Program-made: the position numbers and the translations under genes
Notes under the pieces: model-generated
What the model was told of the DNA's origin: nothing
The model's input: only the letters and a program-made list of their open reading frames with translations
Databases searched by the model: none
Part shown: positions 26,695-43,112 of the stretch, one piece after another
How positions within the stretch are numbered: the stretch's first letter is position 1
How the letters are laid out: the number at the start of each line of letters is the position of its first letter
Assembly (NCBI GenBank): GCA_030592645.1
Contig: JAUVIR010000010.1
Span: 1 to 58,689 of the forward strand
DNA from: Candidatus Fermentibacterota bacterium
GTDB taxonomy: Bacteria; Fermentibacterota; Fermentibacteria; Fermentibacterales; JCC-6
Direction of reading: 5' to 3'
Length of the DNA: 58,689 nt

Positions 26695-27792
26695 ATGGAC
26701 AAAAAGACAGCCCTGCATGACAAACATGTCGACCTAGGCGGCAGGATGGAATCCTTTGCCGGTTATATCATGCCTATCAAGTACACTTCGGTAAAGGAGG
26801 AGCATAATGCCGTCCGCTCCGGAGTGGGTATTTTCGACCTTTCGCATATGGGTGAGTTCAGAGTGAAGGGGAAAGACGCTTCAAAATTCCTGGATTACCT
26901 CCTGACCAACGATTCGGAAGTGGAACTTGGAAAGGCCTATTATTCAGCAATGTGCTACCCTGATGGCGGTATTGTTGATGATCTTATCGTGTACAGGATT
27001 GCCAACGATGAATACCTTATCATTGTCAACGCATCCAACATCGAGAAAGACTGGGCATGGGTGAACAATCATACGGCAGGTTACAGTATAGACCTGACAA
27101 ACGAGAGTGACGAAACCGCCCTTATTGCCATACAGGGTCCTGATGCCGAAAAAGTGACTCAGAAGCTGACCGATGAGAAGCTTTCGGAGATAGGTTACTA
27201 CGCTCACGCGTCCGGTGTATTTGCCGGAAAGAAAGCCCTGATCGCGAGAACCGGTTATACAGGTGAAGACGGATTCGAGATCTACATAAAATTTGAAGAC
27301 GCGGAAGCCGTGTGGGACGCTATCATGGAAGCCGGTGAAGAGTTCGGGATAAAACCTGTTGGATTGGGTGCCCGGGATACTTTAAGGCTGGAGGTGGGAT
27401 ACCTTCTTTACGGAAACGATATGGATCACACAACCACTCCTATGGAAGCCAGGCTTGGCTGGGTTGTAAAACTGAAGACCGATAAGGAGTTCATAGGCCG
27501 CGAAGTAATGGCCAGACAGAAAGAGGAAAAGCCGGCCAGGTATATCGTCGGGCTGGAGGTTCTGGGGAAGGGATTCCCAAGGCAGGGTGCCGAACTGTTT
27601 GAAGGCAACAGAAAAGTCGGAGTAGTCACAAGCGGTTCCCTGGCGCCGGCCCTCGGGCATGGAGTCTGCCTGGCATTTATTGAAAAGGGTTTTCATAAGA
27701 AGGGAACCGAGCTTGAAGCCGAGGTAAGAGGAAAAAGAATTTCGGTAAAAACCGTCAAACTGCCATTCTACAAAGACGGCAGTAGAAAGTAA
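26695..27792 (+). CDS. gcvT: aminomethyltransferase, glycine cleavage T protein
   Basis: TALHDKHVDLGGRMESFAGYIMPIKY; GARDTLRLEVGYLLYGNDMD. Confidence 0.97.
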   Translation: MDKKTALHDKHVDLGGRMESFAGYIMPIKYTSVKEEHNAVRSGVGIFDLSHMGEFRVKGKDASKFLDYLLTNDSEVELGKAYYSAMCYPDGGIVDDLIVYRIANDEYLIIVNASNIEKDWAWVNNHTAGYSIDLTNESDETALIAIQGPDAEKVTQKLTDEKLSEIGYYAHASGVFAGKKALIARTGYTGEDGFEIYIKFEDAEAVWDAIMEAGEEFGIKPVGLGARDTLRLEVGYLLYGNDMDHTTTPMEARLGWVVKLKTDKEFIGREVMARQKEEKPARYIVGLEVLGKGFPRQGAELFEGNRKVGVVTSGSLAPALGHGVCLAFIEKGFHKKGTELEAEVRGKRISVKTVKLPFYKDGSRK

Positions 27793-27806
27793 CGCTAGGA
27801 GGAGAA

Positions 27807-28190
27807 ATGTCTAATATTCCTGAAGGACTTCGTTATACAGAAACGCACGAGTGGATAAAAGACCTGGGAAACGGCGAATACATGATGGGTCTTACATTCT
27901 ATGCTCAGGAACAGATGGGCGAGATCGTAATGGTTGAATTTCCCGGGATTCAGGATTTTACTTCCGGTGATATTCTGGGCACTCTTGAAGCAGTGAAAAC
28001 TGCCGAAGATTTCTACGCTCCGTTTAACTGTAAGGTTGCACGGGTCAATGATGGTCTTGAGGATGAACCGGCCCTTATCAACGAGAGCTCTTACGAAAAG
28101 GGCTGGCTGATCGTTGTTAAAACTGATGATCCCTCCGGCTTCGCCGGACTTAAGAGTGCCGAAGAGTACTCTGAATTCATCGGTGAGTAG
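27807..28190 (+). CDS. gcvH: glycine cleavage H protein
   Basis: RYTETHEWIKDLG; lipoylation region GTLEAVKTAEDFYAPF. Confidence 0.97.
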   Translation: MSNIPEGLRYTETHEWIKDLGNGEYMMGLTFYAQEQMGEIVMVEFPGIQDFTSGDILGTLEAVKTAEDFYAPFNCKVARVNDGLEDEPALINESSYEKGWLIVVKTDDPSGFAGLKSAEEYSEFIGE

Positions 28191-28193
28191 CAA

Positions 28194-29549
28194 GTGAGCA
28201 GATTCGTACCGAACGGCCCTGCGCAGAGAGAGAAGATGCTCCGCGCTATCGGCGCTGCAAAATTCGAAGACCTGCTCGAACCCGTTCCTGAAAAGTTCAG
28301 GCTGAAAGAGAAACTCCAGCTTCCCGAACCGCTTTCAGAGTTTGAACTGACCTGCGAATTCGAGGAATTTGCCCGAAAAAACACTGGAGCCGATCTGGTC
28401 TGTTTCATGGGAGCCGGAGCCTACGATCATTTCATCCCCGCCGCCGCGGACCATATTCTTCTGAGGAGCGAATTTTACACAGCTTACACGCCCTATCAGG
28501 CTGAGGTTAGCCAGGGCACTCTTCAGGCGATTTTCGAATATCAGACCATGATCGCAAGGCTTACCGGAATGGATATGGCAAACGCTTCCATGTATGACGG
28601 CGCATCTGCAGCCGCCGAAGCATGTCTTATGGCTATGCGGATCACCAGGAAGCAGAAGATACTTGTTGCCGGTTCACTCAATCCAGGATGGCTCGAGGTC
28701 ATCCGAACCTACCTGAAAAGAGACGATTTCGAGATAAGCGAGATCCCTTATCTTGATGACGGCACCCTCGATCTTGCTATTGCATCCGAACTCATTAAAG
28801 ATGGTGCTGCAGCAGCAATACTTGTTCAGTACCCGAACTATTTCGGCCTTATCGAAGACCTGCAGCCTGTTGCGGATCTGATTCATGAACATAAAGGGCT
28901 TTTCATAGTTGCCGCTGACCCCGTAGCCCTGCCCCTTCTCCGGTCACCCGGGGATGCCGGAGCCGATATTGTTGCGGGAGAAGGCCAGAGCATGGGAATA
29001 CCGATGTCCTACGGCGGACCCTATATCGGTTTTATGGCTGCGAGAATGAAACTTGCAAGGAAAATGCCCGGGAGAATAATCGGCAGAACCACTGACCGCG
29101 CAGGTCAGACCGGTTACGTTCTGACCCTCCAAACCCGCGAACAGCATATAAGGAGGAACAAAGCCACAAGCAACATCTGTTCCAATCAGGCGCTTATGGC
29201 CCTCGCTAATGTGATCTACCTGTCACTGATGGGCGAGAAGGGATTCCGGGAAATTTCCAGCCAGTGTTACCACAAGAGCCATTATCTCGAGAAGAAGCTC
29301 CTTGAAATCCCCGGTGTTTCCAGAATTTTCGGGAATACACCGTTCTTCAGAGAATTCGCAATCTCGTTCCCGGTCTCTTCAATTGAACTTCGGGATAGAA
29401 TGATCGAGCATGGTTTTCTTGCCGGTATTCCGGTCGTCGAACTTGGAGAGGGAGCCATGCTTGTTACCGTAACTGAAAAGCGTACCAGGGATGAGATCGA
29501 CAGGTACATCGGAGCTGCGGCCCAGGTTTGCAGGGGAGGTTCAGCATGA
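28194..29549 (+). CDS. gcvPA: glycine dehydrogenase (decarboxylating) subunit 1
   Basis: FMGAGAYDHFIPAAADHILLRSEFYTAYTPYQAEVSQGTLQAIFEYQTMIARLTGMD; GTG start. Confidence 0.97.
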   Translation: MSRFVPNGPAQREKMLRAIGAAKFEDLLEPVPEKFRLKEKLQLPEPLSEFELTCEFEEFARKNTGADLVCFMGAGAYDHFIPAAADHILLRSEFYTAYTPYQAEVSQGTLQAIFEYQTMIARLTGMDMANASMYDGASAAAEACLMAMRITRKQKILVAGSLNPGWLEVIRTYLKRDDFEISEIPYLDDGTLDLAIASELIKDGAAAAILVQYPNYFGLIEDLQPVADLIHEHKGLFIVAADPVALPLLRSPGDAGADIVAGEGQSMGIPMSYGGPYIGFMAARMKLARKMPGRIIGRTTDRAGQTGYVLTLQTREQHIRRNKATSNICSNQALMALANVIYLSLMGEKGFREISSQCYHKSHYLEKKLLEIPGVSRIFGNTPFFREFAISFPVSSIELRDRMIEHGFLAGIPVVELGEGAMLVTVTEKRTRDEIDRYIGAAAQVCRGGSA

Positions 29550-31027
29550 AGACCGTATTTGAACTCAGCAGCCCCGGAAGAATGGGTGTATCGCTGCCTG
29601 AGCTTGATGTACCGGCAGCCCCCGATCTTCCCGCAGGACTCTCGCGCGGAAGCGAAGGTAAAACTGGTCTGCCCGAAGCAACTGAAGGACAGGTCCTGAG
29701 GCATTATGTAAACCTCAGTACCATGAACCATCATGTTGATAAAGGTATGTATCCTCTGGGCTCCTGCACGATGAAGTACAATCCGAAATTACATGAGAAC
29801 CTTGCCAGGATCAGAGGTCTCTCGGGAATTCATCCTCTTGTTCCTCCCGCGCTTGCGGCAGGTTCACTGGAACTGATGTACAGACTTGGTGAATTTCTGT
29901 GTGAAATTACCGGTTTCGAAGGAGTGTCGCTGCAGCCAGCTGCCGGAGCTCAGGGTGAGTTCTGCGGTTTAATGCTTATTAAGAGCTACCACGAAAGCAG
30001 GGGAGAGCCGAACAGGAACGAAATCCTTATGCCGGATTCCGCCCATGGAACCAATCCCGCGACTGCAACCCTTGCCGACTGCATAGTTGTGGGAGTTGAA
30101 TCCAATGAATTCGGTCTGGTCGACCCTGATGATCTCAGACGGAAAGTCGGTCCCAATACGGCTGCCTTCATGCTTACAAACCCTAATACACTTGGTCTCT
30201 TTGAATCCAGGATAGAGGAACTTACTTCTATTGTTCATGAAGCCGGCGGACTGAACTATATGGACGGGGCAAATATGAACGCCCTGCTTGGTATTGCGAA
30301 ACCAGGAGAGATGGGATTCGATGTATGCCACCTTAACCTCCACAAGACTTTTTCAACCCCGCACGGAGGAGGAGGGCCCGGCTCAGGTCCCGTAGCCTGC
30401 ATTGAAGAGCTTGCCGCCTTCCTGCCGGATCCCGCGGTCATACTTGAAGATGACGGTGGCTACAAGCTCTGCAGAAAGCAGAATTCCTTTGGAAGACTGC
30501 TGGCTTTCCATGCTAATACCGGAGTTCTTTACAAGGCCTACGCCTATATCCGGACTCTCGGGGCTGCAGGACTGAGGGAAGTCAGTGAGATCGCTCTGAT
30601 CAACGCGAATTACCTGAAGGCAAAACTCGGAGACTATTTTGATAATCCCTTCGACAACGGTCCCTGCATGCACGAATTCGTGCTTTCGGGAGACAGGCAG
30701 GCAGAACAGGGAGTGAAGACGCTCGATATAGCCAAGAGGCTCCTGGATTATGGTTTCCATGCGCCCACTGTTTACTTCCCGCTTATTGTACACGAAGCGT
30801 TGATGATCGAGCCAACCGAGACGGAGAGCCTGGAAGACCTGGATTCCTTTATTGAAGCCATGATATCCATTGCGGAGGAGGCGGAAGAAAAGCCTTACCT
30901 CGTGACTGATGCTCCCGTCAATACACCTGTTCTGAGGCTTGACGAAGTGAAGGCTGTCAAGGATCTGTGTATTGTGGAACCGGTTAGGAGTGTCGGACAG
31001 GCCCCTGGAGAGGGAGAAAACCTATAG
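29546..31027 (+). CDS. gcvPB: glycine dehydrogenase (decarboxylating) subunit 2
   Basis: YPLGSCTMKYNPK; PDSAHGTNPATA; HLNLHKTFSTPHGGGGPGSGPV (PLP lysine). ATG 29546 overlaps the gcvPA stop. Confidence 0.97.
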   Translation: MKTVFELSSPGRMGVSLPELDVPAAPDLPAGLSRGSEGKTGLPEATEGQVLRHYVNLSTMNHHVDKGMYPLGSCTMKYNPKLHENLARIRGLSGIHPLVPPALAAGSLELMYRLGEFLCEITGFEGVSLQPAAGAQGEFCGLMLIKSYHESRGEPNRNEILMPDSAHGTNPATATLADCIVVGVESNEFGLVDPDDLRRKVGPNTAAFMLTNPNTLGLFESRIEELTSIVHEAGGLNYMDGANMNALLGIAKPGEMGFDVCHLNLHKTFSTPHGGGGPGSGPVACIEELAAFLPDPAVILEDDGGYKLCRKQNSFGRLLAFHANTGVLYKAYAYIRTLGAAGLREVSEIALINANYLKAKLGDYFDNPFDNGPCMHEFVLSGDRQAEQGVKTLDIAKRLLDYGFHAPTVYFPLIVHEALMIEPTETESLEDLDSFIEAMISIAEEAEEKPYLVTDAPVNTPVLRLDEVKAVKDLCIVEPVRSVGQAPGEGENL

Positions 31028-31032
31028 ATGAT

Positions 31033-31452
31033 ATGAACGGGACCGCAGATCACATTCTTGAATGGGTATCCCATCCCGCTGCGGAGAGACCGGGCGCGAC
31101 AGCGGTTTACGTTTTTATCATTCTGCTGTCGGGTGTTATGGCCACAATGGTAATGAACAATAATCCCTGGTGGGGAATGGTGGGAATAGCGGTCCTTTTT
31201 CTGTCGGGGTGGACGTTCTTTCTTCCACTCAGGTTTAGAATGGATAACGAGGGTGTGCAGAAGAAATCTTTATTCGGAAATGAGAAAAAAAAATGGAGCC
31301 AGGTGAAGAGTATTGTAACTGATAAATACGGTGTTCTTCTCAGCCCTTTCCCTCAACCCACCAGACTGGCTAAATTCAGGGGACTGTCTGTTCAGTTCTC
31401 CGGAAACAGAGAGGAAGTACTTGAATTCATCAGGACACATACAGCCGGGTAG
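31033..31452 (+). CDS. hypothetical membrane protein with PH-like cytoplasmic tail
   Basis: Two TM segments, then RFRMDNEGVQKKSLFGNEKKKWSQVKSI, resembling bacterial PH-like membrane proteins. Confidence 0.55.
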   Translation: MNGTADHILEWVSHPAAERPGATAVYVFIILLSGVMATMVMNNNPWWGMVGIAVLFLSGWTFFLPLRFRMDNEGVQKKSLFGNEKKKWSQVKSIVTDKYGVLLSPFPQPTRLAKFRGLSVQFSGNREEVLEFIRTHTAG

Positions 31453-31825
31453 CCGGGATCTTATTGATATCGATGGCGAAGAGGACTTCTCGGAATTCAT
31501 GAGTAAGATCGCAAAGGAGATTGTGCAGCGCCAGCTGACCGTTCCCGCGATAATATTCCTTGAGACCATCAAGCCTCTTTCGTTTCTTGGAAACCAGGCT
31601 CTTATATTCGCGAACCCGATCGTCTCTCTTGTTGTACAGTCGGGTAATTATTACAAGTTCGTTCGAATGCTTGAAGACAGGGAAAATTTAGAGAAACTTA
31701 CAATTGCAATAGAAGAGGAAAACGCTCTTGAAGTCCAGCGCCGGTCGGAGATGAAGGAAACTCGCCGGATGGAGAAAAAGAACAGAAAATCCTTCTGGAG
31801 CAGATTCAGTCGGAAGAGCGACTAA
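31421..31825 (+). CDS. hypothetical protein
   Basis: Candidate TTG start 31421 with GAGG 6 nt upstream (alternative ATG 31499); overlaps the previous gene and is 17 nt upstream of the MutL-like gene. Confidence 0.5.
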   Translation: MNSSGHIQPGSRDLIDIDGEEDFSEFMSKIAKEIVQRQLTVPAIIFLETIKPLSFLGNQALIFANPIVSLVVQSGNYYKFVRMLEDRENLEKLTIAIEEENALEVQRRSEMKETRRMEKKNRKSFWSRFSRKSD

Positions 31826-31842
31826 AAAGAACAAGGAGGGAG

Positions 31843-33717
31843 ATGGCGGTGGCCAGCAAAGAAATCACCAGAATAATGGCGACTGACTGCGGCAGTACCA
31901 CCACAAAAGCCATTCTTATCGAGAAGAAGGATGGCGAATTCCGTCTCATCCGAAGGGGGGAGGCACCGACAACGGTCGAAGCCCCTGCCGAGGATGTTAC
32001 GAAAGGTGTACTGAATGCTGTCGGGGAGATTGAAGATCTGGAGGGGCGCAAATTCCTCAAAGCGGGTGAAGACGGTGTGCAGGTTTCCCCCGACAGCTCC
32101 GATGGAGTGGATATTTACATGTCAACTTCATCTGCCGGAGGCGGTCTTCAGATGACTGTTGCAGGAGTCGTGAAATCCATGACGGGTGAAAGCGCCCAGC
32201 GGGCAGCGCTCGGTGCCGGTGCCATTGTCATGGATATTGTAGCCTCCAACGACGGAAGGCTCCCCCACGAGAAGGTGGCAGACATAAGAAGGCTCAGGCC
32301 GGATATGATCCTTCTTTCCGGCGGTATAGACGGCGGAACGATAGATCATGTCATCGAGCTTGCGGAAGTAATCAAGGCTGCTGATCCGAAACCGAGATTC
32401 GGCGTAGGATACAAGCTTCCGGTTATATACGCCGGTAATAAGGATGCCAGAGAACCGGTAAAGGAAGAACTCGGCGAACAGGTTGAGTTGAAGATAGTGG
32501 ATAACCTCAGACCTGTTCTCGAAAGAGAGAACCTGGGTCCCGCCAGGGATACTATTCATGAACTTTTCATGGAGCATGTCATGGCCCAGGCACCCGGATA
32601 TCCGAACCTCATGAAATGGGCCGGACATTACGTTGATGGCTCCTGGAAACAGGTTCCGATTATGCCCACACCCGGTGCAGTCGGAAAGCTGATCGAGGCT
32701 GTCGCGGAGAAAGAGAACATAGAGGTTATGGGTGTCGATATAGGCGGGGCGACCACCGATGTGTTCAGCGTCTTCACGAGCGGTGAGGAAACCGTATTCA
32801 ATAGAACTGTATCTGCAAATCTGGGCATGAGTTACAGTGTGTCTAACGTATTTGTCAGTGCCGGTTACGACAATGTTATGCGGTGGGTTCCGTTCCACAT
32901 GGACGAGGCTGACCTTCGGAACAGAATAAGAAACAAGATGATACGCCCGACTACTATCCCGCAATTGCTCAAGGAGCTTATTGTAGAACAGGCGATAGCC
33001 AGAGAAGCTCTCCGGCTCGCGCTGGTGCAGCATAAGGATTTGGCAACAGGTCTTAAGGGAGTTGCTCAGGAGAGGACCATTGGAGACGCTTTCGAGCAGA
33101 CCCAGAGCGGCGCGACCCTGGTCAATATGATGAATCTGGATCTGCTTATCGGATCAGGTGGCGTTCTTTCCCACGCTCCAAGGCGAAGCCAGGCTGCCCT
33201 TATGGTAATTGATGCCTTCCTTCCCGAAGGCATTACAATGCTTGCGGTGGATTCCATCTTCATGATGCCTCAGCTCGGTGTGCTTTCAGAGGTTCTTCCC
33301 GAAGCAGCAACCGAGGTTTTCGACAAAGATTGCCTGATCCGCCTCGGTACATGCATAGCGCCTGCGGGGGTTCTCAAGAAAGTTACGGTTCTGGCATCTG
33401 TCACTATGACAAAACAGGACGGATCTTCCATTGATCTGGAAATAGAACTTGGGAAAATGCACGTTGAGCCGCTTGGTGTGGGTGAGAAGGTAAACGCAGT
33501 TATCAAACCTGCCAAAAACCTGGACGTTGGAAACGGTCCCGGCAACGAATGGATCGGCGAACTTGAAGGCGGAGTTATCGGTCTCATCTTCGACGGAAGA
33601 GGAAGACCCTTTTTACTTCCCCAAGATGATTTGCTGCGGATAGATAAACTGCAGGAATGGTCAAAGGCTCTGAATATCTATCCCGAGAGATTCATGGACC
33701 TGGAGGGAGGCGAATAA
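31843..33717 (+). CDS. MutL-like ASKHA-fold protein ('glutamate mutase L' family)
   Basis: Phosphate-1 motif MATDCGSTTTKAILIEK and second motif EVMGVDIGGATTDVFSVF; SD AAGGAGGG before ATG 31843. Confidence 0.85.
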   Translation: MAVASKEITRIMATDCGSTTTKAILIEKKDGEFRLIRRGEAPTTVEAPAEDVTKGVLNAVGEIEDLEGRKFLKAGEDGVQVSPDSSDGVDIYMSTSSAGGGLQMTVAGVVKSMTGESAQRAALGAGAIVMDIVASNDGRLPHEKVADIRRLRPDMILLSGGIDGGTIDHVIELAEVIKAADPKPRFGVGYKLPVIYAGNKDAREPVKEELGEQVELKIVDNLRPVLERENLGPARDTIHELFMEHVMAQAPGYPNLMKWAGHYVDGSWKQVPIMPTPGAVGKLIEAVAEKENIEVMGVDIGGATTDVFSVFTSGEETVFNRTVSANLGMSYSVSNVFVSAGYDNVMRWVPFHMDEADLRNRIRNKMIRPTTIPQLLKELIVEQAIAREALRLALVQHKDLATGLKGVAQERTIGDAFEQTQSGATLVNMMNLDLLIGSGGVLSHAPRRSQAALMVIDAFLPEGITMLAVDSIFMMPQLGVLSEVLPEAATEVFDKDCLIRLGTCIAPAGVLKKVTVLASVTMTKQDGSSIDLEIELGKMHVEPLGVGEKVNAVIKPAKNLDVGNGPGNEWIGELEGGVIGLIFDGRGRPFLLPQDDLLRIDKLQEWSKALNIYPERFMDLEGGE

Positions 33718-34838
33718 TGGCATTTGCATATACACCGGGCCTGAGAGTCGCTGACTGCACATTGGTGCGCAAGGAAAGAAGACTGCCGCTTGCGGGTGAG
33801 ACACTCGTATCAATCGGTGATTCAGTCACCGCTGATACCATTGTTGCAAAGACGCATCTTCCGGGTAATGTGAAGATGCTCAATATCGCGAATGTAATGG
33901 GTCTTCCCCCCGGGGACATTCCCGAACTGCTTTTCGTTAAGGAAGGCGAGAGCATCGAGGAAAACCAGCCGCTCGGGCAGACGAAGGGATTTTTCGGGCT
34001 TTTCAAGAACACGGTGAGATCACCGCTTGAGGGTACGTTCGAAAGCTACAATAAAATTACCGGTCAGGCTGTTCTCCGCGAACCTCCCATCCCTGTTGCG
34101 ATAGACGCCTATCTTCTGGGGAGCGTTACTGAGGTGCTTGCAAACGAAGGTGTAGTAGTTGAAGCTTACGCGACTTTCGTTCAGGGTATCTTCGGTGTTG
34201 GCGGAGAAACCAGGGGAGAGCTCAAGGTACTTACAGACGGACCGGCAGATGAGCTTACAGAGGATCTTATCGATGAATCATGCAGAGGAAAAGTGCTGCT
34301 CGGCGGTTCATTCGTATCTTACACTACTCTTAACAAGGCTATAAAAACCGGGGTGAAAGCGATCATCGTCGGCGGCTTTGACGATAAAGACCTGAAAGAG
34401 TTCCTCGGATACGAGCTTGGAGTTGCCATAACCGGCCATGAGAAGAAGGGGATAACCCTTGTTCTGACGGAAGGTTTCGGAAGGATGACCATGGCCAGCG
34501 AGACTTTCAAACTGCTGAAATCCCGCGAAGGTCTGCTTGCAAGCGTGAACGGCGCCACACAGATAAGAGCCGGTGTCATGCGTCCTGAGGTTGTTATTCC
34601 GCTTGAGGGAACTGAAATGGAAAAGAGTTCAGGTAAGTCTGCAGGCGCTATGGATATAGGCTCTCCCGTGCGATGTATCCGGGCTCCCTACTTCGGAAAG
34701 CTCGGTTCTGTTGAAGCTCTTCCTGCCGAGTTGCAGGTTCTTGATTCCGAAGCTAAGGTAAGGGTTCTTGATGTAAAATTCGATAATGGAGAAATCGTTA
34801 CAGTTCCGCGGGCCAACGTGGAGCTTATAGAGGAATAA
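33717..34838 (+). CDS. barrel-sandwich/KOW-like domain protein of unknown function
   Basis: RnfC/NqrA-like sandwich pattern RRLPLAGETLVSIGDSVTADTIVAKTHLPGNV...FVKEGESIEENQPLGQ...VRSPLEGTFESYNKITGQAVLREPP. ATG overlaps the MutL-like TAA (TAATG). Confidence 0.7.
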   Translation: MAFAYTPGLRVADCTLVRKERRLPLAGETLVSIGDSVTADTIVAKTHLPGNVKMLNIANVMGLPPGDIPELLFVKEGESIEENQPLGQTKGFFGLFKNTVRSPLEGTFESYNKITGQAVLREPPIPVAIDAYLLGSVTEVLANEGVVVEAYATFVQGIFGVGGETRGELKVLTDGPADELTEDLIDESCRGKVLLGGSFVSYTTLNKAIKTGVKAIIVGGFDDKDLKEFLGYELGVAITGHEKKGITLVLTEGFGRMTMASETFKLLKSREGLLASVNGATQIRAGVMRPEVVIPLEGTEMEKSSGKSAGAMDIGSPVRCIRAPYFGKLGSVEALPAELQVLDSEAKVRVLDVKFDNGEIVTVPRANVELIEE

Positions 34839-34873
34839 TATTGTACTTATCAAACTATTAGTGAAAGAAGGAT

Positions 34874-34897
34874 GTGCCCTGGTATCGACCGGGGCAC
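34874..34897 (+). terminator. Rho-independent terminator
   Basis: GTGCCCTGGT-ATCG-ACCGGGGCAC (10-bp stem with one G-U) followed by TTTCTT. Confidence 0.75.
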
Positions 34898-34923
34898 TTT
34901 CTTATCACAGGTAAGGAGGGAGT

Positions 34924-36126
34924 ATGAAGAACCTTTCGGCCTTTATGATTTTCCTGCTGTTATCCGCAGCCGGTACAGCCCTGGCCGATAATGCAGACCC
35001 GCCCGAAAGTGTCGTAACAGAGGCTGCGGAGGAACTGGAAGTTATCAGTGCAGTTGATCTCGAGGCTTCGGATACGCCGGAGGATGCTGGCGGTTCAGTC
35101 AATCTGACATGGCAGATGGAGACCGTTGGTTCCGACCCCGATTCACTCGGGGTCATAAGGAGCGGTCCCGAAGGAGAAGAGCTTATTACCACTCTGCCAG
35201 AGGGAACAGTCATGTACATCGATCAAACGGTGGACAACGGTACTGAATACAGCTACTGGATAGTATCCTATTCCGGAGGTTACGTTCAGGCCAGTTCGGA
35301 AGTTGCTGCAGCAATACCTTCCGCCCAGTGGATATACAGGGGCCGCATCGGTATGCTGATCATTCTCTCCCTGATGGCCGGCGTTATCATTTACTTTATC
35401 GAAAGCGGTAAGAAGGGTAAGGAACTCTTCATTCGCGAAATCGCCGGACTCGCGGCGGTTGATGATGCGGTTGGACGGGCAACCGAAATGGGGAAACCCG
35501 TACTTTACATACCGGGCATTATGGACATGGATGACATCCAGACCATAGCCAGTATGGTGATACTTGGAAGAGTCGCGAGGAAAACAGCCGAGTACGGTTC
35601 TTCTCTTCTTGTTCCCACATGCCGGAGTGTTGTCATGAGTGTTGCCCAGGAAGTGGTAAAGGAGGGATACATCCAGGTTGGAAGGCCGGACGCATATAAT
35701 AAGGAAAACATACAGTACCTTACCGATGATCAATTCGGATATGCGGCTGGAGTGGACGGTATAATGGTCCGGGAGAAGCCCGCGGCAATATTCCTTCTTG
35801 GTACATTCTACGCTGAGAGCCTTATCCTTGCTGAAACAGGCAGGAGTGTGGGTGCCATACAGATCGCAGGAACGGCAATGCCGAGTCAGATACCGTTCTT
35901 TGTAGCTGCCTGCGATTATACATTGATCGGTGAAGAGCTGTTCGCAGCCAGCGCCTACCTGTCCCGGGAGCCAAAGCTTCTCGGAAGCTTGAAAGGACAG
36001 GATGCGGCGAAGCTCTTCTTCATGATACTTATAGTAATCGGTGTTGTCTCTGCCACCATAGGAGATTTCTGGTCTCCGCTCAAGAGCGTCGCGGAATTTC
36101 TCCGCAGGCTCGTAACCGTGAATTAG
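34924..36126 (+). CDS. DUF6754-like membrane protein with signal peptide and FN3-like periplasmic domain
   Basis: Signal peptide; SVNLTWQMETVGSD...YSYWIVSYSGG FN3-like; TM; large soluble domain GKELFIREIAGLAAVDDAVGRATEMGKPVLYIPGIMDMDDIQTIASMVILGRVARKTAEYGSSLLVPTCRSVV; C-terminal TM. Confidence 0.7.
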   Translation: MKNLSAFMIFLLLSAAGTALADNADPPESVVTEAAEELEVISAVDLEASDTPEDAGGSVNLTWQMETVGSDPDSLGVIRSGPEGEELITTLPEGTVMYIDQTVDNGTEYSYWIVSYSGGYVQASSEVAAAIPSAQWIYRGRIGMLIILSLMAGVIIYFIESGKKGKELFIREIAGLAAVDDAVGRATEMGKPVLYIPGIMDMDDIQTIASMVILGRVARKTAEYGSSLLVPTCRSVVMSVAQEVVKEGYIQVGRPDAYNKENIQYLTDDQFGYAAGVDGIMVREKPAAIFLLGTFYAESLILAETGRSVGAIQIAGTAMPSQIPFFVAACDYTLIGEELFAASAYLSREPKLLGSLKGQDAAKLFFMILIVIGVVSATIGDFWSPLKSVAEFLRRLVTVN

Positions 36127-36135
36127 GAGGCTGGA

Positions 36136-36759
36136 ATGAGACTGGTAATACCGCTGGCGATAACATTTACCGCCGGCATGATCATGATCCTGAATTTCTT
36201 CGTACCTCATCAGCCTTTCAAGTTTCTAGGGGAGAACCTTCAGGAATGGTACATGATCGTCGCTTCCGGAGCTATCTTCCTTGGGGTTATGAACCTGATG
36301 CATGTTCATTCCAGAAAGATAAGACTGAAGCAGAAGAACTGGAAATACAGTCCTGTAACCATAATCGGTTTCCTGCTGATGCTTGTTACGGGATTGATTT
36401 ACGGAGTGGCGGAGAACATGCCGTTCGATTACCTTTTCATGAATATGGTCGCGCCTATGAGTGCTACGATGTTCAGCCTGCTTGCGTTCTTCGTGGCCTC
36501 TGCCGCTTTCAGAGCTTTCAGAGCATCCAACTGGAGGGCGACCCTTCTGCTTACATCGGCTTTTCTTGTCATGCTGGGTCAGGTTCCCATCGGAGCGATG
36601 ATCTGGGATAAAATACCCCTTGCCAAGGTCTGGCTTATGTCAATTCCCAATACGGCAGGACAGAGGGCTGTGATGATCGGTGCTGCCATGGGGGTTGTGT
36701 CCACCTCGCTCCGCATGATCTTCGGGATCGAGCGCAGCTGGCTGGGGGGTGCTGACTGA
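36136..36759 (+). CDS. polytopic membrane protein of unknown function
   Basis: Multiple TM helices; contiguous with the DUF6754-like gene. Confidence 0.65.
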   Translation: MRLVIPLAITFTAGMIMILNFFVPHQPFKFLGENLQEWYMIVASGAIFLGVMNLMHVHSRKIRLKQKNWKYSPVTIIGFLLMLVTGLIYGVAENMPFDYLFMNMVAPMSATMFSLLAFFVASAAFRAFRASNWRATLLLTSAFLVMLGQVPIGAMIWDKIPLAKVWLMSIPNTAGQRAVMIGAAMGVVSTSLRMIFGIERSWLGGAD

Positions 36760-37598
36760 TGGCTGATTTTTACGAAAAACTGGGGAATCTCGATAGAAGG
36801 ATAATCTTCGTTCTTATCGCCCTTTCGGTGATGATCCCCATAATATTCAATATGGTTTTTCCCAATCCCGTGGGCGCCGAACCCAGCAGGGATATGTTCG
36901 ATTATGTAGATGCCCTGCCGGAAGGCTCGAATGTGCTTCTAAGTTTCGATTACGATCCTTCAACGATGCCTGAGCTTCAGCCCATGGCAGAAGCGATTGT
37001 ACTGCATCTTTTTAAGAAGAACATAAATATCGTTGGTATGGCTCTCTGGCCGCAGGGTGCCAGCCTTGGACAGGATGCCATGTCAAGTATGGCGGACAGC
37101 CTTGGAAAGGTTCAGTTCGAAGACTGGGTAAACCTGGGTTACAAAACCGGAGGCGGTGTGATGATAGTCCGTCTCGGTTCCAGCATGAGCGCTGTTTTCC
37201 CGACTGACAGAGACAACGTCCCCTGGTCTGAGATCCCGATGCTGAGGAGCATCACCAATCTTGAAAGCTTCTCGCTCATAATTTCGCTGTCCGCCGGCGA
37301 CCCCGGTATCATCCAATGGGTCATGATGGCGGGTGACAGGTTCGGGGTCCCGATAGGAGGCGGCTGTACTGCTGTCAGCGCGCCGACATTGTATACCTAT
37401 CTTCAGACAGGTCAGATGGTGGGGCTTCTCGGCGGTCTCAAAGGAGCAGCCGACTACGAAACTCTTATCGGTATTGTGGGCGGACAGGCTGTCAGGGGGA
37501 TGGCTCCGCAGTCGATAGCCCATGTTGTAATAATGCTGTTCATAATAATAGGTAATGTTGCATACTTCTTGCAGAGGAAGAAAGGAGGGGTGAAATGA
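36759..37598 (+). CDS. membrane-anchored protein of unknown function with extracytoplasmic or soluble domain
   Basis: N-terminal TM (RRIIFVLIALSVMIPIIFNMVFP), large soluble domain, C-terminal TM (IAHVVIMLFIIIGNVAYFLQRKK). Start overlaps the previous stop. Confidence 0.65.
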   Translation: MADFYEKLGNLDRRIIFVLIALSVMIPIIFNMVFPNPVGAEPSRDMFDYVDALPEGSNVLLSFDYDPSTMPELQPMAEAIVLHLFKKNINIVGMALWPQGASLGQDAMSSMADSLGKVQFEDWVNLGYKTGGGVMIVRLGSSMSAVFPTDRDNVPWSEIPMLRSITNLESFSLIISLSAGDPGIIQWVMMAGDRFGVPIGGGCTAVSAPTLYTYLQTGQMVGLLGGLKGAADYETLIGIVGGQAVRGMAPQSIAHVVIMLFIIIGNVAYFLQRKKGGVK

Positions 37599-38248
37599 AT
37601 TGGGAAATACTTGGTATCTGGCTTGGAGCCATAGTAACGCTATGTCTTTACAGCTTCCTCTACCGCGATAACCCCTTCTACAAATTCGTGGAACATCTCT
37701 TTGTCGGCATGAGCGCCGGTTACTGGGTCATCTACAATATAGAGAACGTTCTAATACCCAACTGGTGGCAGAATATGTTCCCACCAGAAGGCGGATTCAA
37801 CGGGATCTGGATAATCCCAGGTGTATTCGCTCTTTTCATGATCGCGCGGATACTTCCGAAAACAGCTAGTCTTTCCAGGCTTTCTCTGGGAATGATTGTC
37901 GGCGTGGGAGCCGGACTGAACATGGTCAGCTTCTTCCAGACAAATGCACTGGCTCAGGTGAAGGGGACCATATTCTCTTTAGCCTCGGGCGGTGTGTGGA
38001 GCATTTTCAGCAGCCTGGTGCTGGTTGTCGGGGTTGTGAGCGGTCTGGTTTACTTCTTCTTCTCAAAGGCACATACCGGTGTGGTGGGAAGGACCGCTAA
38101 TGTTGGAATAACTATACTGATGGTCGCGTTCGGAGCCAGTTTCGGGTACACTATTATGGCACGCCTGAGTTTGCTCATCGGAAGATTCCAGTTCCTGCTT
38201 GAAGACTGGCTTCCGACAATTCCGCGCTTGCTGGGATTGGGCGGCTGA
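37595..38248 (+). CDS. polytopic membrane protein of unknown function
   Basis: Repeated hydrophobic helices; ATGA-type overlap with the previous gene. Confidence 0.65.
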   Translation: MNWEILGIWLGAIVTLCLYSFLYRDNPFYKFVEHLFVGMSAGYWVIYNIENVLIPNWWQNMFPPEGGFNGIWIIPGVFALFMIARILPKTASLSRLSLGMIVGVGAGLNMVSFFQTNALAQVKGTIFSLASGGVWSIFSSLVLVVGVVSGLVYFFFSKAHTGVVGRTANVGITILMVAFGASFGYTIMARLSLLIGRFQFLLEDWLPTIPRLLGLGG

Positions 38249-38451: not shown

Positions 38452-38652
38452 TTATGCTTTATTCAGATGGTATGTAACTCACTGAGGAGGTGTATTCTCA
38501 GAACTGTTCTAAGCTGTAATAAATAGCGTAACACCAAAGGTTTGCACAGCTTTTGAAAAAGTAAGAAGGAGGTGTCTCGAAATTGCTTTTTCACAGCTGA
38601 AGAATATTTTATCCGCATCATAGGTTGCGGACAGAAGAAAGGAGCTACAGCG

Positions 38653-41442
38653 GTGCGTAGAAAAGCAATGATAATGTCTTTTGCACTTGTGCTGTTCGTG
38701 GCTCTGTCAGTAACGGCAGGCACCACTGGAAAAATTGCCGGAAGGGTAACCGACATTTCAGGTAACCCACTGATAGGTGCCACCGTTATGGTCGTGGGAA
38801 CTTCCTACGGCGCAATGACGGATGCTAACGGAGAGTATTTCATTATCAACCTTCAGCCCGGTATTTACACTATATCGGCAAGTATGATTGGTATGAGTGA
38901 GAAGATAGCAGATGGACTAGCGGTCGTAGCCGACCAGACTTCTCCAATGAACTTTTCCCTTGATCCCGCTACTGTCGGAATAACATATATGACGGTATCT
39001 GACTCAAGAGGAATGATCGAGATGGGCGCCACAGAGACCTTTCATGTGATTGGGCGCGAAGAGATCAAAACCATGCCGGTTGCGGGTATTGCCGATGTGG
39101 TAAACCGTCAGGCAGGAGCCACTGACCGTGGAGGCCTTCACATGAGGGGCGGTCGCTCCGGTGAGGTCACCTATATGGTTGATGGTGTTGCCCAGATGGA
39201 TCCTACTTTTAACACATTCACCAGCAACATTCCCCTGTCCGGTGTGGCTGAAACCTCCATAATAAGTGGTGGCTTCGGGGCCGAATATGGTAATGCACAG
39301 TCCGGTGTTGTAAACATCATTACGCGCGAAGGCGGGCGCGATTACACCGGTTCTGTAAGCTGGAACGGTAACGACTGGCAGAAGCTTGGTATGGTCAGTG
39401 ACTGGACCTGGGGTGGAACATCCATAGATGACCCTCTGGAATGGAGATGGAGTAACATATCACCATTCTCAGAAGCCAGAACGAATCTTGAAGCTACAGT
39501 TGGAGGTCCCGAGCCCTTCACATCATACCTTCTTCCCGCAATAGGGCTGGATATTCCTGGAGATATGAGAGTATTCTTCTCCGGGGAGTTCCTCGAGACC
39601 GGTGGAGGAATGGATGGAAGGTATGGTTACGGTTTTGATGACTGGCAAACCCAGTGGACCGGTAACCTGAAACTGACATACAAACCTAACCCCAAGACCA
39701 AGATCAACCTTACAGGTTTCTTTATGGACAACACTTTCGGTTACGGAATCGGCAACTGGAGTGCGTATGAAAGCCGTTGGGCTTGGCACCTGTATGAATT
39801 GCCTTATATCGATGAAGATACGCTCTCCGAAACTTACGGAGACACTCTCTCCTGGGGAGAGGACATCCTATGGGGGTGCCCCACATTCTTCAGACAGAAC
39901 TACAGTGTTGGCGCAAGTGTCACCCAGACTCTGAGTGGTGCCACTTTCATGGAGATAAGGCTTAACCAGTTCGAGGCTGCCAGGGATTACAGAATCTATA
40001 ATGATCCCAGTGATACCCTCAACACCACCGAATTTTACGGAGAGGATTTCAGCTGGGAAGACTGGCAGAGTGTTACTCCAACTAGAATTATTGATTTCGA
40101 CGGATTCTACAGAGGCGGAAGAAACCGTTCCGTCTGGGGGGAAAGAAGAAGTACAACTTCTACTTTCAGAACCGACATAACAAGCCAGATTAGCCAGCAA
40201 CATCAATTGAAAGCCGGTTTTGAAGCCCAGTACTTCGATGTATTTGACTACTCTGTTGACCTGGCCTCGGGAGGGAATATCTATGCCCAAAGGTATCATA
40301 TATTCCCTAATTCCGGAGCCGCCTACATCCAGGACAAAATGGAATACAGGGGAATGATAGTCAATGCCGGTCTCCGGTTCGACTACTTTAACTCGAACTT
40401 CGATGACTACCCCGCTGATCTTACCGATCCTATCAATTCGGGAGTAGCTCCTGGAGAACCTGGCTATATTAAAAATCCTATAAGCGTTCCCATCAAATAC
40501 CACCTGAGTCCCAGAATTGGATTCTCTCATCCGATTACCGAACGCGATGTACTGCATTTTACTTATGGTCACTACTTCCAGACGCCACAGTTCGATAGAA
40601 TGTATGGTGGTGCGGATTACAACCTTTCCGGTGCGTATCCTCAGGTAGGAAATCCTGACCTCTCAGCTGAGGAAACGATTTCCTACGAGGTTGGTGTGAA
40701 GCATATGTTCGATGATGTCACAATGATAGATGTCACCGGTTACTACAAAGACATCACAGGCCTTCTGGATATGCAGAAAAACTATTATACAGCGCTTGAA
40801 TCTTACGACCTCTTCATCAATGGTGATTACGGAAACGTAAGAGGAGCCGAGTTCAATTTCATCAGACGTCCCAGTGATTTCTGGTCAGGCAGCATCAACT
40901 ACACGTATTCAGTCGCAATGGGAAAAAGTTCCAACTCAACTCAGAACTACACCTATGCATGGGCTAACTGGATCGTTCCCAAGGTTGAATCTCCTCTTGA
41001 CTGGGATGAGAGACATCGTGTAAATGTGGAATTCGATTTCCGCATTCCCAGGGGTGAAGGACCAAGACTTGGTGACACTCCTTTCCTTGAAGGATTCGGT
41101 GCTCATGTTTCCTGGACGTATGGAAGCGGATTCCCGTACAGCTCAGCCAATCAGGGAACCGCGCAGCCTGTTATCAACAATAGTAGATATCCCTGGACGA
41201 TGATGACAACCCTGAAGGTCAACAAAACTTTCTGGGTAGGTCCTGTAATCCTTGATGCCTACTGCCAGGTTAATAACCTCTTCAACAGGCAGAATATTGA
41301 TACCATCATAGATGCGGGCTGGTACGACGCAGACCAGGACGGTAACGGAGAGCCAGATAATGATCCAACTGGTCAGTATAGCAATCCGTACGTATTCAGC
41401 AGACCCCGTATGATCAGGTTTGGTCTTGGATTTGAATGGTAA
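38653..41442 (+). CDS. TonB-dependent receptor with N-terminal carboxypeptidase-regulatory-like domain
   Basis: Signal peptide; GKIAGRVTDISGNPLIGATVMVVGTSYGAMTDANGEYFI; plug EEIKTMPVAGIADVVNRQAG...GGFGAEYGNAQSGVVNIITREGG; C-terminal FGLGFEW. Likely start GTG 38653 (SD AAAGGAG). Confidence 0.9.
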   Translation: MRRKAMIMSFALVLFVALSVTAGTTGKIAGRVTDISGNPLIGATVMVVGTSYGAMTDANGEYFIINLQPGIYTISASMIGMSEKIADGLAVVADQTSPMNFSLDPATVGITYMTVSDSRGMIEMGATETFHVIGREEIKTMPVAGIADVVNRQAGATDRGGLHMRGGRSGEVTYMVDGVAQMDPTFNTFTSNIPLSGVAETSIISGGFGAEYGNAQSGVVNIITREGGRDYTGSVSWNGNDWQKLGMVSDWTWGGTSIDDPLEWRWSNISPFSEARTNLEATVGGPEPFTSYLLPAIGLDIPGDMRVFFSGEFLETGGGMDGRYGYGFDDWQTQWTGNLKLTYKPNPKTKINLTGFFMDNTFGYGIGNWSAYESRWAWHLYELPYIDEDTLSETYGDTLSWGEDILWGCPTFFRQNYSVGASVTQTLSGATFMEIRLNQFEAARDYRIYNDPSDTLNTTEFYGEDFSWEDWQSVTPTRIIDFDGFYRGGRNRSVWGERRSTTSTFRTDITSQISQQHQLKAGFEAQYFDVFDYSVDLASGGNIYAQRYHIFPNSGAAYIQDKMEYRGMIVNAGLRFDYFNSNFDDYPADLTDPINSGVAPGEPGYIKNPISVPIKYHLSPRIGFSHPITERDVLHFTYGHYFQTPQFDRMYGGADYNLSGAYPQVGNPDLSAEETISYEVGVKHMFDDVTMIDVTGYYKDITGLLDMQKNYYTALESYDLFINGDYGNVRGAEFNFIRRPSDFWSGSINYTYSVAMGKSSNSTQNYTYAWANWIVPKVESPLDWDERHRVNVEFDFRIPRGEGPRLGDTPFLEGFGAHVSWTYGSGFPYSSANQGTAQPVINNSRYPWTMMTTLKVNKTFWVGPVILDAYCQVNNLFNRQNIDTIIDAGWYDADQDGNGEPDNDPTGQYSNPYVFSRPRMIRFGLGFEW

Positions 41443-41457
41443 ACTGAATTCTTCCGC

Positions 41458-41485
41458 TCAGCAGCGGTTGCATAACCGCTGCTGA
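41458..41485 (+). other. intergenic perfect hairpin
   Basis: TCAGCAGCGGTT-GCAT-AACCGCTGCTGA, 12-bp stem, no U-tract, between TonB receptor and exbB-like gene. Confidence 0.7.
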
Positions 41486-41510
41486 ACCAAAGAAGAAGGA
41501 GTGATAATAG

Positions 41511-42353
41511 ATGCGAAAATTCCTGCTACTGTTCCTCGTGCTTTCTGCCGCCTTATGGGCACAGCCCGGGGAACCCGGTTCCGATGCCCCCGCAGGTGAA
41601 GAAACCGCAGAGGTAACGGAAGAGCAGACCGAACCGGCAGAAGAAACCATTGAGGAGACGGTTGTTGAAGAGACAATCGAGGAAACTCAAGAAGGAGAGG
41701 AGGTAGAGCGGGCACAGAGCGCCAGTATGGATCTGAAGGATCTTTTCATATCCGGTGGACCCTTCATGTACCCCCTTCTGCTTGCTCTTCTTATCGGTAT
41801 TGCCGTATCGGTCGAAAGGTTCCTTTCATATAGAAAAGTAAAGATCAATGTAGGCTCCTTCCTTGAAAAAATGGGTGGCTTCATCCGCAAGGGAGATGTT
41901 AAAGGAGCCGAGGAACTGTGCGAGCGCACAAGAGGCCCAGTGGCGGCAATAATGCACGCCGGTCTCCTGCGCCACGATAAAGGGCTTGAAGCCGTTGAGA
42001 AAGCGGTTGAGAGTTCAGGCGGAATCGAGATGGCATACCTTGAGAAGGGTATAGTCGTACTCGCTTCGGTTTCGAGTATCGCTCCGATGCTGGGATTTCT
42101 CGGAACCGTTTCTGGTATGATCAGAGCCTTCGGTGAGATAGCCGCCGCAAAGAACGTTGAAGCAAGTCTGGTCGCCGGTGGTATTCAGGAAGCACTGATA
42201 ACTACCGCTACAGGTCTTGTTATAGCGATCCCGATCCAGATATCGCATAACTACTTCATATCCAGGATCGGTAAGTTCGTTGTTGATATGGAAGAGGCCA
42301 GCATATTCCTTGTGGATACACTGGCTGAAATGGAGCACCTGAAGCAGCTTTAA
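41511..42353 (+). CDS. MotA/TolQ/ExbB proton channel family protein with signal peptide and acidic linker
   Basis: FMYPLLLALLIGIAVSVERFLSY; ASVSSIAPMLGFLGTVSGMIRAF; ATGLVIAIPIQISHNYF. Glu/Thr-rich N-terminal segment after a signal peptide. Confidence 0.92.
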   Translation: MRKFLLLFLVLSAALWAQPGEPGSDAPAGEETAEVTEEQTEPAEETIEETVVEETIEETQEGEEVERAQSASMDLKDLFISGGPFMYPLLLALLIGIAVSVERFLSYRKVKINVGSFLEKMGGFIRKGDVKGAEELCERTRGPVAAIMHAGLLRHDKGLEAVEKAVESSGGIEMAYLEKGIVVLASVSSIAPMLGFLGTVSGMIRAFGEIAAAKNVEASLVAGGIQEALITTATGLVIAIPIQISHNYFISRIGKFVVDMEEASIFLVDTLAEMEHLKQL

Positions 42354-42362
42354 GGAGCATGG

Positions 42363-43112
42363 ATGCGGATACGTAACAGACCGAGAGCAAGCGGGGCCAT
42401 CCCCGACGCCTCAATGTCCGACATTGCATTCCTGCTGCTGTTGTTCTTCCTGGTCACAACGACATTCGAAGTTCAGAAGGGTATCTCCTACAAACTTCCC
42501 AAGAAGCCCGACGAGACAACCGTAGAGGTTGTAATCGACGAGACTAACAGGCTTGTCATGACCATTAAGCAATGGGGAGCCCACGAGTATGTGGTACTGA
42601 TCGATCAGGCACCGCCCGATGGTCCCCTGCAAAGAGCAAGAGCTGGAGAAGATGTAAGTCTCCAGGACACAACTCTGCAGAATGGTATAAGAACACTGGC
42701 TGCGCAGAGGGCTGAGGCCATAGACGCAGTCCAGAGCAGGCTTTTGAATAACCTGGAAGTTGCAAAAGGTCTTCCATCCGGAACTTTCAGTTCCCTGGAA
42801 ACCGCTATTGCCGCGGAAAATCTTGTAGCCATGATACGTCCCGGGATCATAAGGACGTATCTGGGAGCAGCCACCCCGATGGAGACTTCCCAAGTTTTCG
42901 GTGAAGTCGCCTTCGGAGATACACTGGTGCTTTCCGATGCAAGACAGGGAGACATAGCATCTGCGGTAAGAGAAAGCGAGCTCGTAGTAATCCTCAAGTT
43001 CTTCCCTGACTGTGATTACGAGGGCATGGTACATGCTCTTGATGTTCTGCGCATGAACGGTGTAAGCAGAACGGGAATCACAATTCAGCAGCGGATGGGA
43101 GGTGGCGCATAA
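42363..43112 (+). CDS. ExbD/TolR family protein (large, with insertion)
   Basis: IPDASMSDIAFLLLLFFLVTTTFEVQKGISYKLP; C-terminal VILKFFPDCDYEGMVHALDVLRMNGVSRTGI. Confidence 0.88.
   Translation: MRIRNRPRASGAIPDASMSDIAFLLLLFFLVTTTFEVQKGISYKLPKKPDETTVEVVIDETNRLVMTIKQWGAHEYVVLIDQAPPDGPLQRARAGEDVSLQDTTLQNGIRTLAAQRAEAIDAVQSRLLNNLEVAKGLPSGTFSSLETAIAAENLVAMIRPGIIRTYLGAATPMETSQVFGEVAFGDTLVLSDARQGDIASAVRESELVVILKFFPDCDYEGMVHALDVLRMNGVSRTGITIQQRMGGGA

Follow-up and report, generated by a model that had tools for sequence, protein, structure and literature searches.

Organization of the eight-gene unit

The window, meaning the whole 58,689-nucleotide stretch of Fermentibacterota MAG DNA that was analyzed, contains a unit of eight co-oriented genes at 31033-38248, in the order a_PH, b_small, MutL, BSH, DUF6754, TM1, P279 and TM2. 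An earlier sequence-only reading had described a locus of six genes, and all six ORFs were recovered, co-oriented, where it had placed them, but the conserved unit comprises eight genes and begins upstream with a_PH and b_small. We assigned these two to the unit because both travel with it in other phyla (24/80 and 53/80 loci, respectively). The junctions of the six genes overlap or nearly abut, in agreement with the tight spacing proposed before; of the TAATG overlaps reported, the one at the first junction was confirmed at 33715, but the others were TGATG at 36757 and ATGA at 37595.

The first gene, a_PH (31033..31452, + strand), encodes an accessory member of 139 aa with two TM helices and a soluble part called PH/YcxB-like by resemblance only, its score against YcxB (12.1 bits) lying below the Pfam cut-off of 23.3. 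It is followed by b_small (31421..31825, +), a short amphipathic protein with the motif PAI.FLE..KPL.F.GSQ and a probable TTG start, placed by reference to a related locus (L052). MutL (31843..33717, +) is a MutL-family ASKHA protein of 624 aa with predicted ATPase activity, distinct from GlmL, and BSH (33717..34838, +) combines an RnfC_N/biotinyl-like barrel-sandwich with a KOW-like C-terminus and a hairpin loop, KGFFGLFK. Between BSH and DUF6754, the intercistronic terminator/attenuator-like hairpin that had been noticed at 34874 (34874..34897, +) was substantiated by a 10-bp stem, an MFE of -29.5 and a z-score of -3.8; L052 and L053 also have a hairpin between these two genes, of different sequence. 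Going by predicted folds and topology, the last four genes encode the DUF6754 protein (34924..36126, +; signal peptide, FN3 domain outside, TM helix, conserved cytosolic alpha/beta domain, TM helix), TM1 (36136..36759, +; ~6 TM helices, motif FSLLAF.IASAAYRAFRARN), P279 (36759..37598, +; an extracytoplasmic Rossmann-like alpha/beta domain between two TM helices) and TM2 (37595..38248, +; ~5 TM helices, motif SFLYKDNPFYK..EH), which closes the cassette in relatives. BSH, TM1, P279 and TM2 matched no Pfam family over the cut-off, and Rfam gave no match in the window, whether to a cobalamin riboswitch or to another RNA close to the locus.

Directly upstream of the unit lies a complete-looking glycine cleavage cluster, gcvT-H-PA-PB (26695-31027), and in loci from WOR-3, TA06, Eisenbacteria and Latescibacterota the unit is likewise preceded by gcv genes; a lipoate ligase gene follows it in four loci (L062, L071, L079 and L092). 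Downstream, positions 38572-43112 of the window encode a TonB-dependent receptor with a CarboxypepD_reg domain, then ExbB and ExbD, and Exb/Tol genes adjoin MutL-BSH in L065, L075, L078 and L081. The flanking genes shared no common pathway: glycine cleavage/lipoate ligase, Tol/Exb, cdsA/dagK, comF and aroKB were all encountered, and because these neighbors (gcv, ExbBD/Tol, cdsA, comF, aroKB) differ by phylum, they were not used to assign function.

MutL is distinct from GlmL

MutL scored 412 bits against PF13941 (Pfam gathering cut-off 27). The ASKHA phosphate motifs proposed for it are present as DCGSTTTK (residue 15) and DIGGATTD (residue 299), and PHOSPHATE1, PHOSPHATE2 and the adenosine-type GSGG motif were intact in the window MutL and in 74/74 relatives. 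These features it has in common with the GlmL/MutL family (PF13941; NF040745, NF040744, TIGR01319), but it is ~170 residues longer, falls in a separate clade and has BSH as its partner, at times in a fusion, where GlmL would have a B12-dependent mutase beside it. The protein missed the NCBIfam GlmL equivalog cut-off (218.6 vs 475 bits), the Or-4 cut-off (207 vs 600 bits) and the TIGR01319 cut-off (160 vs 204 bits). In the tree, in which several branches are long, four GlmL-type genes split from all other MutL sequences with a support of 100/100. Four genomes (G071, G080, G081 and G085) carry both kinds of gene; the short GlmL-type gene adjoins ORFs that on inspection look OraE/OraS-like or B12-mutase-like, whereas the long MutL stands with BSH. 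A weak match of MutL to MreB-like_C was also obtained (E=0.001), MreB being a more distant relative of the protein than GlmL and hydantoinase.

The sequence-only reading had noted that no glutamate mutase S/E gene lies near MutL and had called the 'glutamate mutase' label misleading. At the genome level, glutamate mutase E (PF06368) exceeded the cut-off in 0/42 genomes of the window's own phylum and 0/49 genomes of other phyla, with the controls also at 0, so that the sensitivity of this search has no positive control. Homologous loci held no adjacent glutamate mutase genes. The failed cut-offs, the lack of glutamate mutase E and the separate clade confirm that the label misleads, and on these grounds, together with the neighboring genes, the GlmL/B12-mutase reading was rejected.

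BSH and its fusions with MutL

The RnfC/NqrA-like sandwich domain previously proposed for BSH was found in most relatives, RnfC_N being matched in 34/48 (best E=4.9e-8), but the window protein alone gave no RnfC_N match. Among the same 48 members, NQRA_N was matched in 11 and Biotin_lipoyl in 36. A biotin/lipoyl carrier reading was considered and rejected, since the attachment lysine motif (AMKM or DKA) occurred in 0/59 BSH proteins. Despite the RnfC_N-type barrel-sandwich, BSH differs from RnfC/NqrA in lacking the NADH/flavin (FMN) module and the Fe-S cysteines, in its C-terminal half and in the lack of Rnf/Nqr subunits among the recurrent neighbors of its loci. Many members carry a hydrophobic KGFFGLFK-type loop, which may contact the membrane.

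MutL and BSH are encoded by a single gene in five loci of the type-B clade (L034, L036, L039, L049 and L195). A separate fusion was found in the type-A clade: in L196, a_PH and b_small are followed by a MutL-BSH gene of 1006 aa, with both partners at full length, and then by DUF6754. That the two genes were joined separately in at least two lineages points to a direct functional connection between MutL and BSH.

The membrane module

The DUF6754 protein of the window is a full member of PF20539 (403 bits, cut-off 27), a catalogued Pfam family with no assigned function, for whose partners we know of no record. The FN3-TM-soluble-TM layout suggested earlier was upheld, the FN3 domain by profile (titin FN3, E=9e-6) and by predicted fold, and the topology, like that of P279, by charge flanks. 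AF2 models reached a pLDDT of 88.7 for DUF6754 and 92.4 for P279. In a fold search of the PDB with DUF6754, all of the top 50 matches contained FN3, which leaves the core alpha/beta fold unplaced; P279 gave no PDB match at E<1e-3, and TM1 and TM2 had no PDB or Pfam relatives over the cut-off. Twenty-seven polar positions in the DUF6754 alpha/beta domain were conserved at >=90%, and polar residues were very strongly conserved in that of P279; no conserved Cys or His pair was present in TM1 or TM2.

The soluble domains of DUF6754 and P279, predicted to face the cytosol and the outside, respectively, have a similar predicted helix-strand order. Homology between them was rejected, hhalign having found no sequence kinship. 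TM1 and TM2 were likewise rejected as duplicates of each other on comparison.

Distribution and co-occurrence

When GTDB genomes were scanned with an alignment of MutL, at least 558 relatives were obtained, and neighborhoods were read for the best 80 of them (60-87% identical). According to unchecked MAG labels, these 80 came from Zixibacteria, WOR-3, TA06, Calditrichota, Eisenbacteria, Cloacimonadota, Marinimicrobia, Poribacteria, Latescibacterota, Riflebacteria, Coatesbacteria, CSSED10-310, Gemmatimonadetes, Stahlbacteria, Planctomycetota and Bacillota. In the 80 loci, where contigs often stop only a few kb from MutL, BSH was near MutL in 63, b_small in 53 (before MutL or after BSH), DUF6754 in 29, TM1 in 28, TM2 in 26, P279 in 25 and a_PH in 24. 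When loci of other phyla were fetched with DUF6754 alone, TM1 directly followed it in 29/30. Unbiased clustering of ORFs again put these eight families at the top for recurrence, MutL and BSH falling together in a single cluster by way of their fusion genes. Overall, the eight-gene set recurs almost intact, with a conserved gene order, in genomes labelled as >15 little-studied phyla. A search of viral contigs and plasmids found no DUF6754 relatives.

DUF6754 was carried by 46/49 genomes picked only for MutL and by 0/14 control genomes. In the phylum of a Marinimicrobia genome, where DUF6754 occurred in 59/100 genomes, system-type MutL was present in 39/39 tested DUF6754-positive vs 3/41 negative genomes (Fisher P = 1e-19, shared ancestry ignored). 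In the phylum of a Riflebacteria genome, with MutL matches counted at >350 bits and GlmL-type matches lying at about 130 bits or less, the corresponding values were 31/32 and 2/11 (P = 9e-7, shared ancestry ignored). MutL and DUF6754 lay <=10 kb apart in 27/39 and 25/31 genomes of these two phyla, respectively, despite broken contigs. Clustering of MutL-like and DUF6754 genes in other little-studied bacteria had earlier been suggested; the neighborhood search and the co-occurrence bear it out, and the conserved association extends beyond close relatives.

In the window's phylum, DUF6754 was found in 42/42 examined genomes, usually with two to four matches. Fermentibacterota genomes with long enough contigs carried two sets, that of the window (system A) and another one. 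The latter comprised a DUF6754-TM1-P279-TM2 cassette close to serA and transketolase, together with a fused MutL-BSH gene of ~920-1046 aa and one additional DUF6754 standing alone. Among the 49 genomes, DUF6754 copies outnumbered MutL copies in 25, and tandem arrays of up to three cassettes were observed (L181, L184 and L074). Genomes often had one MutL-BSH and several DUF6754 cassettes. Because MutL is 60-87% identical across labelled phyla and DUF6754 is present in every sampled genome of one phylum, the system is likely central to its host cells.

Proposed function and alternatives

It is reasonable to infer that the products of the unit form one ATP-dependent envelope complex, as the sequence-only reading had suggested, because MutL-BSH fusions occur and the ATP motifs are intact. 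Our main reading, to which we give a probability of roughly 0.4, is that the eight genes constitute one system in which a MutL-BSH ATPase-adaptor drives the membrane module in transport- or assembly-type work. The analysis established the conserved gene unit and its order across labelled phyla, the co-occurrence at genome level, the separate MutL-BSH fusions, the intact ATP motifs, the excess of DUF6754 over MutL copies and the separation from GlmL; the physical complex, the ATP hydrolysis, the division of labor and the kind of work are inferred. MutL would be the cytosolic ASKHA ATPase, and BSH the adaptor that is paired with it and anchors it to an inner-membrane module built of DUF6754 (FN3 outside, alpha/beta inside), TM1, P279 (alpha/beta outside) and TM2; b_small and a_PH are putative membrane-associated helpers. 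By binding and hydrolyzing ATP, MutL would drive conformational work on the module, which would handle a substrate across or at the envelope, and one MutL-BSH pair may serve several interchangeable cassettes. ECF-type transporters, in which a shared ATPase module serves interchangeable membrane units, offer an analogy only, as this system has no ABC ATPase and no S or T component homology. ASKHA proteins are not known to power transport, which counts against a motor; so do the genomes with MutL but no DUF6754, the DUF6754 genes that stand alone and the differing neighbor genes outside the unit. That we have here a new class of ATP-driven membrane machine, with a MutL-type ASKHA motor, a BSH adaptor, four membrane proteins without known relatives and several interchangeable units per motor, widespread in FCB-type candidate phyla, is a tentative proposal standing just short of an even chance.

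The alternative that fares best, although we consider it unlikely, is that MutL-BSH acts as an ATP-dependent reactivase or chaperone whose client is a membrane-bound enzyme made of DUF6754, TM1, P279 and TM2, so that the cassette performs chemistry and not transport. GlmL is presumed to be a reactivase or chaperone for B12 mutases, and MutL is homologous to GlmL, whose neighbors in the same genomes are aminomutase-like genes. The conserved polar residues of the DUF6754 and P279 alpha/beta domains speak for such an enzyme, and one MutL for many cassettes suits a catalytic activase. However, these domains matched no known enzyme fold, no cofactor-binding motif was seen in the search, and, as far as we know, the role of GlmL is itself unproven.

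A second alternative, in which MutL polymerizes like its FtsA/MreB relatives into a filament or scaffold that BSH and b_small hold at the membrane and that places envelope complexes, appears improbable. The MreB-like_C match, the amphipathic b_small beside MutL and the PH-like partner a_PH are consistent with it, but the closer kinship of MutL to GlmL and hydantoinase argues otherwise. Still less probable is an RNF/NQR-like redox or ion-pumping complex built on the RnfC/NqrA-like protein. The RnfC_N and NQRA_N matches of BSH favor such a complex, but CxxC occurred in 0/74 MutL and 3/59 BSH proteins, TM1 and TM2 lack a conserved Cys or His pair, and Pfam revealed no homology to RNF/NQR membrane subunits; it was rejected because the cofactor ligands are absent. 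Finally, an ordinary glutamate mutase repair protein GlmL with unrelated neighbors is very improbable, since PF13941 membership and the common database label are outweighed by the missed cut-offs, the separate clade, the zero counts of glutamate mutase E (zero in controls as well) and the co-occurrence with DUF6754.

The MutL and DUF6754 families themselves were already catalogued. A literature search, whose scope was papers outside subscription and preprint sources, found no mention of DUF6754, PF20539, PF13941 or 'glutamate mutase L' and no description of the system, which annotation pipelines conceal under the name 'glutamate mutase L'. Should the proposed motor role be true, MutL would be, as far as we know, the first example of an ASKHA ATPase that drives a membrane machine; should it be false, the unit still gives those seeking new functions eight defined genes to target and two unknowns at the level of the fold.

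Variant loci

Several loci departed from the common arrangement. MutL occurred without DUF6754 in the genome in 3 of the 49 genomes (G052, G067 and G070). In G052, labelled Planctomycetota and assembled as a single chromosome, MutL is accompanied by a half-length BSH (L067), possibly representing a reduced or decaying system or another use of MutL. Lone DUF6754 genes, with no TM1, P279 or TM2 beside them, were found in L171 and L185 and may reflect a role of DUF6754 outside the cassette. In the window's own genome, a 70-residue BSH remnant (L034:6848-7078, 48% identical) lies ~1.9 kb after the MutL-BSH fusion gene and looks like a decayed second copy. G080, labelled Bacillota, has six PF13941 matches and two additional, divergent pairs of neighboring MutL and BSH genes (L193 and L194), an expansion of the pair. 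In nine Zixibacteria/Calditrichota-type loci (L059, L065, L066, L073, L074, L075, L078, L081 and L093), an extra gene between MutL and BSH encodes a secreted product of ~266 aa with a C-terminal TM anchor.
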